Shown here piece after piece: positions 1,933 to 10,758 of a stretch of DNA of 40,430 nucleotides. The number at the start of each line of letters is the position of its first letter. Position 1 is the stretch's first letter. Under the pieces are notes generated by a model, which saw only the letters and a program-made list of their open reading frames with translations, was not told the origin of the DNA and did not search any database. Position numbers and translations under genes: made by a program. Origin of the DNA: a virus. The stretch is taken from positions 1 to 40,430 of the IMG/VR virus record IMGVR_UViG_3300028920_000145. The stretch is one strand, 5' to 3'.

Positions 1933-1950
1933 AGCCCGGTCGCCCGGGCT
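1933..1950 (-). terminator. Intrinsic terminator (bidirectional hairpin)
   Basis: A 7-bp GC stem (AGCCCGG/CCGGGCT) with a 4-nt loop is followed by TTTT on the - strand and by an eight-T run on the + strand. It lies between the 59-codon gene and the tail chaperone. It is nearly identical to the hairpin at 2921-2938. Confidence 0.8.
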
Positions 1951-1969: not shown

Positions 1970-2149
1970 TTATTTTCCGCAGAGTTTCAGGATTGCCGTT
2001 TCTATCACCTGGCCCCTGTGGAGCTTTGGACGGCTTAAATTTCCCAGGCGTTTTGTCAAATCCCATACCTCATCTGTAAGCCGTATGGAGCGGACCTTGG
2101 AAACGCTTTCCAGGGTCTCGCCGTCAGTTAAATCGTGTGCTATTTTCAT
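1970..2149 (-). CDS. Small ribbon-helix-helix-like protein
   Basis: A 59-residue protein starts at ATG 2149 behind AAAGGA. The pattern KVRSIRLTDEVWDLTKRLG followed by RGQVIETAIL resembles a ribbon-helix-helix fold: a short strand, then helix, turn, helix ending in an (I/V)xxAI motif. Such proteins bind DNA as dimers and usually repress promoters. It is the last gene of the inserted module between tail tube and tail chaperone and may control the promoter at 2825-2853. Family assignment is by pattern only. No signal peptide or membrane segment. Confidence 0.6.
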   Translation of the reverse strand: MKIAHDLTDGETLESVSKVRSIRLTDEVWDLTKRLGNLSRPKLHRGQVIETAILKLCGK

Positions 2150-2191: not shown

Positions 2192-2446
2192 TTATTGTAT
2201 TATATGTCCCTTCCGAATCACGTGGCAAGGTGGGTTGTGGTGATTAAGATATTGCCACAAATTTATTCCATCAAGTCCGGGAACCATTTCCTCCCCGTCC
2301 ATCTCAGAAGCCTCTTCCGGCGTGCACTCCATTATGTCTGATATAAGGGATGCATCGTAAGACACAACGCGCCCGCTTACCCCGCCCTGTTCCAAGCACC
2401 CGTATACCGTGTTAGTGGTCTCAATTTTAGTGGTCAATTTTTTCAT
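2192..2446 (-). CDS. Hypothetical protein, 84 aa, downstream of the hammerhead ribozyme
   Basis: Starts MKKLTTKIETTNTVYG at 2446 behind AACGAAAGGA. The acidic middle (PEEASEMDGEEM) is followed by WQYLNHHNPPCHV. I do not recognise a family. The ribosome site lies just downstream of the hammerhead ribozyme at 2462-2511. Self-cleavage between 2469 and 2468 would give this message a new 5' end about 22 nt before the start codon. It belongs to the promoter-terminator module 1933-2938 and is probably an accessory (moron-type) gene. Confidence 0.7.
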   Translation of the reverse strand: MKKLTTKIETTNTVYGCLEQGGVSGRVVSYDASLISDIMECTPEEASEMDGEEMVPGLDGINLWQYLNHHNPPCHVIRKGHIIQ

Positions 2447-2461
2447 TTTTTTCCTTTCGTT

Positions 2462-2511
2462 AAGTCCAGACGCCCGGGTGGGCGTTTCGGCCGGCGCTCA
2501 TCAGTGGACTT
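2462..2511 (-). ncRNA. Type I hammerhead ribozyme
   Basis: On the - strand all core parts occur in order. Stem I is AAGTCCA (2511-2505) with TGGACTT (2468-2462), 7 of 7 bp. The CTGATGA core is at 2504-2498, followed by a short stem II region of 9 nt (2497-2489), then GAA (2488-2486). Stem III is ACGCCC/GGGCGT with loop ACCC (2485-2470). The cleavage triplet GTC ends at 2469. The open stem is stem I, so it is type I. Stem II is the weak point: only 1-2 bp form cleanly, with one extra C. It begins 6 nt after the stop of the 92-codon gene and ends next to the ribosome site of the 84-codon gene, so cleavage would split the two messages. Confidence 0.8.
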
Positions 2512-2516
2512 GCCGG

Positions 2517-2795
2517 CTAATAGGCATCTATGGCACTATATACCGCATCTTCCCCATGCCGGCGTATCATCTCATCCAGCAGGGCCTTATCTTGGAGGAC
2601 AGTCTCAAGGAGCTGGCTGTCACTGGCCAAGATGAAAAGCTCCTCAGCAAGAGACTGGGAAGTAATCCCTTCTTTTTCAAGGGCTTCGCCATCATCAGCA
2701 AAAGCCCGAATATCGGTTAGGGAGAAGCCCTGGCCAAGCAAGTCTATAATCGTGTCAACCGCCTCGATTGTGTCTGTGTCTATAATGTGTGTCAT
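2517..2795 (-). CDS. Hypothetical acidic helical protein, 92 aa
   Basis: Starts MTHIIDTDTIEAVDTIID at 2795 behind AACGAAAGGG. The protein is strongly acidic and mostly helical, without membrane segments. No family recognised. It is the first gene after the promoter at 2825-2853 and is followed after 6 nt by the hammerhead ribozyme. As leader gene of the inserted module it is a likely accessory protein. Small acidic phage proteins can be DNA mimics, but nothing here proves that. Confidence 0.7.
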   Translation of the reverse strand: MTHIIDTDTIEAVDTIIDLLGQGFSLTDIRAFADDGEALEKEGITSQSLAEELFILASDSQLLETVLQDKALLDEMIRRHGEDAVYSAIDAY

Positions 2796-2824
2796 TTTTT
2801 CCCTTTCGTTAAGTTGTTATATAT

Positions 2825-2853
2825 AATATACCACAATAACACTACAATGTCAA
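2825..2853 (-). promoter_or_regulatory. Sigma70-type promoter of the inserted module
   Basis: On the - strand TTGACA (2853-2848), a 17-nt spacer, then TATATT (2830-2825). It is followed by an AT-rich leader and the gene starting at 2795. It lies just after the tail tube terminator. An AAGTGAAAAAAA element lies upstream at 2869-2881 (+ strand). Confidence 0.75.
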
Positions 2854-2920
2854 GTCTTTTTTAAAAAAAAGTGAAAAAAAATATGCCTAAATTAGCCTAA
2901 AAAAGCCTATAAACAGAAAA

Positions 2921-2938
2921 AGCCCGGTTGCCCGGGCT
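2921..2938 (-). terminator. Intrinsic terminator after the tail tube gene
   Basis: AGCCCGG-TTGC-CCGGGCT stem-loop followed on the - strand by TTTTT, 32 nt after the tail tube stop. Almost the same hairpin occurs at 1933-1950, so the two bracket the small-gene module. Confidence 0.8.
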
Positions 2939-2969
2939 CTCCTGTCTGAAAAGGAAGTGTGATGGCAGA

Positions 2970-4412
2970 TCAGATAAAAAGTAGTTCCCAGTCGTCATCG
3001 TCCCCGGTGTTGCCCAGGTCACCAGTGCAAACGGCAGACAGGGCCAGGCCCACAATGCCGTCCTGGTCTTCGATGGGCAGGGCGTCAAATTCGAGCTCAT
3101 CAGCGAAAAGATAACACTGCTTTCCAACCGTGCTGCCCCAGTGCAAGCTCAGGCTGGTTTTTGTGCCCGCATCCAGCGTGCCGAAGAAATCATAGGTGGC
3201 AGCCAGTTCATGCTCCAGGTTGATCGTTACCTTTGATTCCCTGGCTGTTACCCTAGCCGTCTCGTATCCCGTATCACCGCTTGCATTTCCATTCTCCCGC
3301 AGGATGACCTCATTGCCGCAGTCCATAGCGAAATTCTTAAAAACAGGCGTAAAACTGCCGCCCAGGGTAAGCTCTGCGTTTTTGAGGATTGGCGGGTCTT
3401 CGTTATCCCTGGTAATGGATGTCATCGCCACATCACCGTTACTTTCCCTCGGCCCCTGGAAGGCGAAATCAAAAAACCCTGCACGATTGGCCTGGCTTTC
3501 AAGCGTCCAGTTGCCCATTGCGGATCGGGCCTCAAACTGATAGCCGTCATACTGCAGGGCTACCGTGGCCATCTCCTGGTTGCTGCTCACTGGCTTTATA
3601 TGATAACCGTGGACGGACGGGCTGGCCGACATGGTGGCTTTTGCGCCAGAAGTGCCGCCAGTCACTTCCTCCGAACCGTTGAACTTTGTCACGGAAGTGG
3701 GCTCGAAATAAAGATATGCAGCGCCATTCACTTCTGCTTTTAAAACCCTTCCCGTGGCACCGGTAACCCCGCCCGTAATAGTTTCATTTCTCTGGAATGA
3801 TGAAACAGTGATAGCCCCTATCGGTATCCTGGAAACTCCCAATAATTTATTTGAGCAGGCTTCAAAGGCCCATCCGTAATCAAGATTATACTGAACATCC
3901 GCAACCGCAGGCGAGTCCGTTGCCTCGTCATAGGTGTCATCTGTGATATCACGGTTAATCACATCTATATAATCAGAACCGTCATTCACATCGTGGATTT
4001 TGAATGTCCCATTATTCTGGCTGTTGGTGGCGTAATTGACGGTCAGATATTCCCCATCGTTTATTTCCGATAAATCAGGGCTGCCGTTAAATGCGTAGCG
4101 GACGATATTACCCGACTGCCAGTCTATGGTATCCACATCTAGGTTTGCCAGCTTTGAAAACGTGTCAGGAGTATTTATCTCGCTTCGAAAACTCACATTT
4201 ATGGCCTTCGTGCTTTCAAGGTTCCCGATAGGCGTCAAACTGGCTCTCGCCAAATCCCGTTTTTCCCTGGGCGCATTGTATTCTGCGGCAGCCCCCACTA
4301 TTATCCTGGCAATGCCGTCATTTGCGGCCAGCGTCTCAGCCGTTCCCTGCGTGCTCTCACACCGTCCTAATACCTGTTGTTTTCTGCTTAAAAGCGGGTT
4401 TGCAGTAGTCAT
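2970..4412 (-). CDS. Major tail tube protein
   Basis: A 480-residue protein starting MTTANPLLSRKQQVLGR, large for a siphovirus tail tube subunit. Beta-rich throughout. Residues about 210-265 contain two related repeats, ITGGVTGATGRVL and VTGGTSGAKATM, a pattern seen in inserted beta modules of phage tail proteins, preceded by NETITGG and NGSEEVTGG. It follows the tail terminator-like and gp37-like genes and precedes the tail chaperone, the usual place of the tube gene. The length could suggest a sheath protein, but there is no separate tube gene and no baseplate set. The conclusion rests on position and beta-rich character. Confidence 0.7.
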   Translation of the reverse strand: MTTANPLLSRKQQVLGRCESTQGTAETLAANDGIARIIVGAAAEYNAPREKRDLARASLTPIGNLESTKAINVSFRSEINTPDTFSKLANLDVDTIDWQSGNIVRYAFNGSPDLSEINDGEYLTVNYATNSQNNGTFKIHDVNDGSDYIDVINRDITDDTYDEATDSPAVADVQYNLDYGWAFEACSNKLLGVSRIPIGAITVSSFQRNETITGGVTGATGRVLKAEVNGAAYLYFEPTSVTKFNGSEEVTGGTSGAKATMSASPSVHGYHIKPVSSNQEMATVALQYDGYQFEARSAMGNWTLESQANRAGFFDFAFQGPRESNGDVAMTSITRDNEDPPILKNAELTLGGSFTPVFKNFAMDCGNEVILRENGNASGDTGYETARVTARESKVTINLEHELAATYDFFGTLDAGTKTSLSLHWGSTVGKQCYLFADELEFDALPIEDQDGIVGLALSAVCTGDLGNTGDDDDWELLFI

Positions 4413-10031: not shown

Positions 10032-10758
10032 GGACATAATAATTAAACCCATTTCGTCAAAAACGGCGGGAAAAATTATTAAAGCAATTCATTATTCCGG
10101 TTCTGTATGCCAGAACAGTAAAATCCACTTCGGTGTTTTTTTAAATGAAAAGTGCGGTGGGGCTTTGCAATTCGGGCCGCCAATGGATAAACGGAAAACA
10201 ATTACCCTTGTAAAAAATACTCGGTGGAATGGCTTTTTAGAATTAAACAGAATGGCATTAGCAGAATGGTTGCCAAAAAACGGAGAAAGCCGGGCGATCT
10301 CAATTTGCCTAAAAATCATAAAAAAAAGATACCCATTTATAAAATGGGTTGTATCTTATGCAGACGGAACCCAATGTGGAGACGGAACCATTTATAGGGC
10401 GTCAGGATTTTATTTAACCTCAATTAAAAAAAATACCACAATACTTTTAATGCCAAATGGAAAAATAATAACGGATAAAAGCCTAAATAATCATAAAATT
10501 AAAAATGCCGGATGGTGTAAAAAGAAAGGAGCAAAGCCACTTCCAGGGTTCCAGTTGCGATATATTTACTTCATAGACAAATCAAAAAAGAAAGATTTAA
10601 CAGTTCCAATTTTGCCATTTTCTGCAATTAAGGAATTTAAGGCGGGAATGTACAAAGGAATCAAGCGTGTGCCGAATAGTACGGATTCCGGTGTCCAACC
10701 GGAAAAAGGCGGTGCGAATCCGACCCACACGCTCCAAACCACTGAATCAACTTGCTAA
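10018..10758 (+). CDS. Mom-like GNAT-fold DNA modification protein
   Basis: A 246-residue protein. ELNRMALAEWLPKNGESR, then the long helix of SICLKIIKKRYPFIK, then VVSYADGTQCGDGTIYRASGF closely follows the pattern of the Mu Mom family (LSR...S...YAD...GxIYxAxxF). That family modifies adenine in phage DNA to resist restriction and has an acetyltransferase-like fold. The neighbouring ParB-fold gene fits a modification pair. The C-terminal 35 residues (VPNSTDSGVQPEKGGANP) are unlike the rest and are encoded by a tRNA-like sequence. Activity and target base are inferred. Confidence 0.7.
   Translation: MLKAKDIIIKPISSKTAGKIIKAIHYSGSVCQNSKIHFGVFLNEKCGGALQFGPPMDKRKTITLVKNTRWNGFLELNRMALAEWLPKNGESRAISICLKIIKKRYPFIKWVVSYADGTQCGDGTIYRASGFYLTSIKKNTTILLMPNGKIITDKSLNNHKIKNAGWCKKKGAKPLPGFQLRYIYFIDKSKKKDLTVPILPFSAIKEFKAGMYKGIKRVPNSTDSGVQPEKGGANPTHTLQTTESTC
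10665..10736 (+). other. tRNA-like sequence inside the 3' end of the Mom-like gene
   Basis: 72 nt with an acceptor-like stem GCGTGTG/CACACGC followed by T and CCA, a central 7-bp hairpin TTCCGGT/ACCGGAA (10686-10704), and a T-arm-like GGTGCGAATCC. The D arm overlaps the central stem, the loop lacks the usual U before the anticodon, and one extra base lies between T arm and acceptor. It is therefore a degenerate tRNA-like fold, not a normal tRNA gene. It lies just upstream of the small terminase. Confidence 0.35.

Follow-up and report, generated by a model that had tools for sequence, protein, structure and literature searches.

The closest described systems are hammerhead ribozymes of phages and the Rfam family RAGATH-1. 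Perreault et al. (2011, PMC3088659) reported a pseudoknot between parts of stems I and II in about 40% of hammerheads, with examples in each of the three types, and a natural hammerhead with a one-pair stem II that requires its six-pair pseudoknot for speed. The study also places pseudoknotted hammerheads at phage gene junctions, as in the locus analyzed here, and describes cleavage of polycistronic RNA, both in vitro and in E. coli, by hammerheads clustered in phage genomes. It further cites a halovirus hammerhead that precedes a start codon by 13 nt, where the 5' end of the mRNA lies within three nt of the cut. HHphage of the haloviruses HF1/HF2 resembles our element in that a start codon follows it, there after a dozen nt; its core variant, linked to high salt, is absent from our element. 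RAGATH-1 (RF03152) has the type I order and a one-pair stem II with a loop of 6-7 nt, and inspection of its alignment revealed complementarity between loop II and the upstream sequence, all of which our element shares. The Rfam consensus of this family has an additional hairpin whose loop presents the upstream pseudoknot strand.

The window, i.e. the whole stretch of DNA analyzed, is a virus record of 40,430 nt (IMGVR_UViG_3300028920_000145). Close to the element its minus strand encodes Mu-like head proteins, namely a protease, a major head protein, and proteins like gp36 and gp37. Between a gene for a 480-aa protein (2970-4412) and a gene at 1474-1890, a cassette on the minus strand spans 1933-2853 in the order predicted promoter, ORF92, hammerhead, ORF84, ORF59 and terminator-like hairpin (Table 1). 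ORF92 and ORF84 have no protein relatives in the viral contigs or phage records searched, and ORF59 gave no family match. The predicted structure of ORF92 (pLDDT 81) returned no match in a fold search, and the prediction for ORF84 is poor (pLDDT 43). The locus shows no DNA similarity to phage records. In three related phage contigs (L122, L123 and L126) the homologue of the 480-aa gene is followed by a short gap and then directly by the next structural gene, which in L122 is 55% identical to its counterpart in the window. The cassette is therefore an extra in the window phage relative to these three. Its layout resembles that of moron cassettes (own promoter, small acidic proteins, a small putative DNA-binding protein, an extra among structural genes), and this is only a resemblance. 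Some moron cassettes carry anti-defence genes; a designation as anti-defence cassette was suggested by the layout alone, and as nothing supports a specific activity it was rejected. A G+C-rich hairpin lies between ORF84 and ORF59 (2169-2192), and a promoter-like site (11/12) is present near the 3' end of ORF84 (2199-2228).

Table 1. Features of the hammerhead cassette and of related hammerheads (window coordinates unless a contig is named).
Feature	Position	Strand	Basis
Type I hammerhead, predicted	2517-2462	-	sequence reading
Pseudoknot 5' strand GCCGGC	2512-2517	-	sequence; permutation test with 22 hammerheads; register-matched pair table
Stem I 5' arm AAGTCCA, 7/7 paired with 2468-2462	2505-2511	-	sequence; 6/7 stem I pairs covary
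Catalytic core CTGATGA	2498-2504	-	sequence; invariant across aligned homologues
Stem II, single pair G2497-C2489; loop CGCCGGC	2489-2497	-	sequence; pair table; covariation
GAA (2488-2486) and 6-bp stem III, ACGCCC (2485-2480)/GGGCGT (2475-2470), loop ACCC	2470-2488	-	sequence; covariation
Predicted cut between C17 (2469) and T1.1 (2468)	2468-2469	-	inferred from hammerhead chemistry
Stem I 3' arm TGGACTT, start of downstream product	2462-2468	-	sequence; covariation
ORF84 leader ACTTAACGAAAGGAAAAAAATG, ribosome site AAAGGA (2457-2452)	2444-2465	-	exact-repeat search
First leader copy ACTTAACGAAAGGGAAAAAATG, before ORF92	2793-2814	-	exact-repeat search
Predicted sigma-70 type promoter TTGACA-17-TATATT, extended -10	2825-2853	-	consensus match 11/12
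ORF92, acidic, predicted all-helical	2517-2795	-	sequence; structure prediction
ORF84	2192-2446	-	sequence; structure prediction
ORF59 (59 aa), last cassette gene, ribbon-helix-helix-like by eye	1970-2149	-	sequence inspection; putative fold
Terminator-like hairpin closing the cassette	1933-1950	-	consensus match
Terminator-like hairpin of the structural gene before the cassette, upstream of the predicted promoter	2917-2942	-	consensus match
Compact pseudoknotted hammerheads	L266 4778-4837; L300 2580-2640; L299 495-554; L074 1663-1726		
L310 hammerheads	IMGVR_UViG_3300037205_000035, G014:C1:16500-30500, cores 12363 to 3110	-	

An earlier note, written from the sequence alone, had placed a type I hammerhead between two small genes of this window. 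The bases it named are all present: a stem I paired at seven of seven positions, the CTGATGA core, GAA, a stem III of 6 bp and GTC. The element thus has the CUGANGA core and GAA with an A15.1-U16.1 pair (2485 and 2470) and H17, and three helices, of which stem I is open-ended and stems I and III covary. Counting from C17, the predicted cut after GUC on the minus strand falls at the position given in the note. The element is longer than the note had it. Immediately 5' of stem I, at 2517-2512, stands a GCCGGC with which loop II (GCCGGC, 2495-2490) can form a 6-bp pseudoknot that engages six of the seven loop bases. With this strand included the element starts at 2517 instead of 2511, and its first G is the final base of the ORF92 stop codon UAG. 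The note had regarded a short stem II with an extra C as the weak point. Stem II is indeed weak, a single G-C pair, but the pseudoknot explains both this weakness and the extra C. The one-pair stem II and the pseudoknot make the element more like RAGATH-1 than like the standard type I model.

The minimum-energy structure calculated by RNAfold, which in its plain form cannot represent a pseudoknot, uses the GCCGGC helix as a nested hairpin; its stability is not unusual (z -1.3). Stem I does not form in this nested structure, so the active one requires pseudoknot and stem I to coexist. A UGCC/GGCA hairpin is also possible in the window and would consume part of the pseudoknot strand. Folded as single strands, the flanks of homologues did not agree on an upstream hairpin presenting this strand.

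Homologue sets were collected by pattern scans and a script requiring the whole hammerhead; the viral homologue contigs are IMG/VR records, mostly metagenomic. In one set the pseudoknot strand is placed as in RAGATH-1, at some distance upstream of stem I (L013, L069, L098, L258, L263, L267, L280, L295, L296 and others). About 9-14 nt separate the strand from stem I at such RAGATH-1-like loci, whereas that of the window abuts stem I. In a second, compact set the distance is 0-3 nt (L266, identical to L276; L300, identical to L308; L299; L074; L269; and the similar elements L181, L230, L268, L271 and L272). L266/L276, L300/L308, L299 and L074 resemble the window element in size, order and a stem III starting with ACGC, and their pseudoknot is likewise flush or near-flush with stem I, between small genes. 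A published description of the compact form may exist; the search covered the open-access literature.

Within the compact set, nine of 14 stem pairs were changed on both sides, and 93% of cells were paired compared to 33-54% when the partners were slid. Three of the six stem III pairs covary, with all cells (100%) paired, and the G-C pair of stem II is invariant, backed by the pseudoknot. The pseudoknot was assessed with 22 hammerheads having a loop II of 6-7 nt. The pairing score of each loop II with its own upstream strand averaged 7.1 (4.7 for swapped pairs), and the own-partner score was reached by none of 20,000 permutations. The scan that fixed CCGG on both pseudoknot strands is biased toward a pseudoknot; each of the 22 hammerheads, or the contig that carries it, was also recovered with patterns that leave the upstream strand free. 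The note had proposed a comparison across related phages. Orthologues at this locus could not be used for covariation, as L122, L123 and L126 do not carry the cassette; the stem pairs do covary among homologues elsewhere.

Three hundred dinucleotide-preserving shuffles of the window were searched with a loose descriptor that asked for the core, A15.1-U16.1, at least 3 pairs in stem III and at least 4 in stem I. It occurred 0.02 times per shuffled window and exactly once in the real one, and stems of 6 and 7 were never reached in the 300 shuffles. The pseudoknot alone was matched by 3.9% of shuffled upstream 30-mers (777/20,000). By itself it is thus the weaker evidence, not a striking one, and its support is drawn from the homologues. 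Among Rfam families, RAGATH-1 was the sole ribozyme match, with 27.7 bits, half of the gathering threshold of 56.3 bits (E 0.012 in a scan of 401 bases with 4227 families; E 2.8e-4 in a single-family search of the whole record). The type I model suggested in the note, RF00163 (Hammerhead_1), gave no match at E <= 10. A contig with twelve hammerheads, described below, likewise stays below the RF00163 threshold, which indicates that RF00163 lacks sensitivity for elements of this kind. From eight compact homologues, with the window excluded, a covariance model was built whose only match was the window element (58.8 bits, E 1.5e-12; E-values of this tool are rough). L269 was omitted from the final alignment, where its long stem III was misaligned. 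As expected, a model including the window had no match in the related-phage contigs L122, L126 and L128. The leave-one-out search without the window, the covariation and the position of homologues at similar stop-to-start junctions of other viral contigs bear out a type I hammerhead between genes.

The element occupies the 70-bp gap from the stop codon to the next ribosome site, and 22 nt separate the predicted cut from the ORF84 start codon AUG. The 22-nt leader of ORF84 has only two copies in the window, alike save one variable base, with 0 expected by chance. The copy of ORF92 stands behind the predicted promoter. In L266, L300, L299 and L074 a start codon follows 12-14 nt after the predicted cut; among the compact homologues, L269 and the L181 group are exceptions in not standing before a start codon.

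Junction hammerheads are repeated on one 63-kb contig (L307/L310), where a stretch of about 9.3 kb carries 12 of them, all on the same strand. The start codon is found 9-14 nt after the cut in eight of the 12 and at 27 in one; in most, a stop codon comes shortly ahead of the hammerhead, and a ribosome site and ATG directly follow the cut. Rfam at curated thresholds left the stretch unflagged. Most of these hammerheads have an ordinary stem II; they share the junction position with the window but not the compact pseudoknot. Two hammerheads were also observed in a cultured virus, Salisaeta icosahedral phage 1 (JN880423.1, L316), at 10222 and 10645, in the successive gaps between ORFs 16, 17 and 18. 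No paper combining Salisaeta, phage and ribozyme was found among the open-access papers searched. A further contig (L259, cores 1520 and 1825) contains two hammerheads ~300 nt apart, and 28-33 nt past each cut a short ORF begins.

The computation establishes the fold, its homology, its position and the leader repeat. From these we infer cleavage and an effect on message stability and translation: very probably, the pseudoknot-held type I hammerhead between ORF92 and ORF84 cuts the cassette transcript into separate messages. Hammerheads leave a 5'-hydroxyl on the downstream product, and RNA ends influence decay. After a cut between the cistrons, the ORF92 message would end in the body of the ribozyme with its G+C-rich stem III, and this structured 3' end should block 3' exonucleases. 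The message of ORF84 and ORF59 would begin with a 5'-hydroxyl and a 22-nt leader that nearly matches the leader of the promoter-proximal ORF92. The two parts would then exist as separate messages that share the start signal, each with a lifetime of its own. Message processing is the reading that needs least, and we regard it as the best one.

Alternatively, the RNA cuts but regulation is the point of it. Ribosomes ending ORF92 at UAG would then cover the 5' strand of the pseudoknot and the stem I arm, the RNA would fold and cut only at low upstream translation, and the lifetime of the downstream message would be tied to upstream use. Consistent with this, in the window, L269 and L074 the stop codon borders on the fold or runs into it, and it lies 0-1 nt before stem I in six of the 12 L310 hammerheads. 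However, tight intergenic space in phages alone predicts the same spacing, and in most members of the L181 group the nearest upstream stop is located 21-28 nt before stem I. We consider this regulatory reading unlikely. Still less probable is that cutting serves to free the ribosome site of the second gene. In L266, L300, L299 and L074 the stem I 3' arm is itself the GGGAGG Shine-Dalgarno sequence of the next gene, but in the window AAAGGA lies outside stem I and is not hidden by it; cutting is therefore probably unnecessary to expose the ORF84 site. A chance or decayed hammerhead-like sequence, whose G+C-rich inverted repeats form an ordinary intercistronic hairpin, would fit the score below the Rfam threshold and the 3.9% of shuffles that match the pseudoknot strand alone, but is very improbable given the rarity of even looser matches in shuffled windows, none of them as good, the leave-one-out result and a core with all bases intact.

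Beyond message processing at this locus, the compact pseudoknotted hammerhead may, as a tentative suggestion, be a portable intercistronic unit of phages (stop codon, ribozyme, ribosome site and start codon) that turns an operon into single-gene messages, with junction hammerheads used gene after gene in some phages, as on the contig with 12 of them. As the homologues show, a group of phage hammerheads at gene junctions escapes detection at Rfam thresholds. In one short cassette, two genes with the same leader stand one behind a promoter and the other behind a ribozyme, which provides a small testable setting for the question of what role hammerheads play in bacteria and phages.
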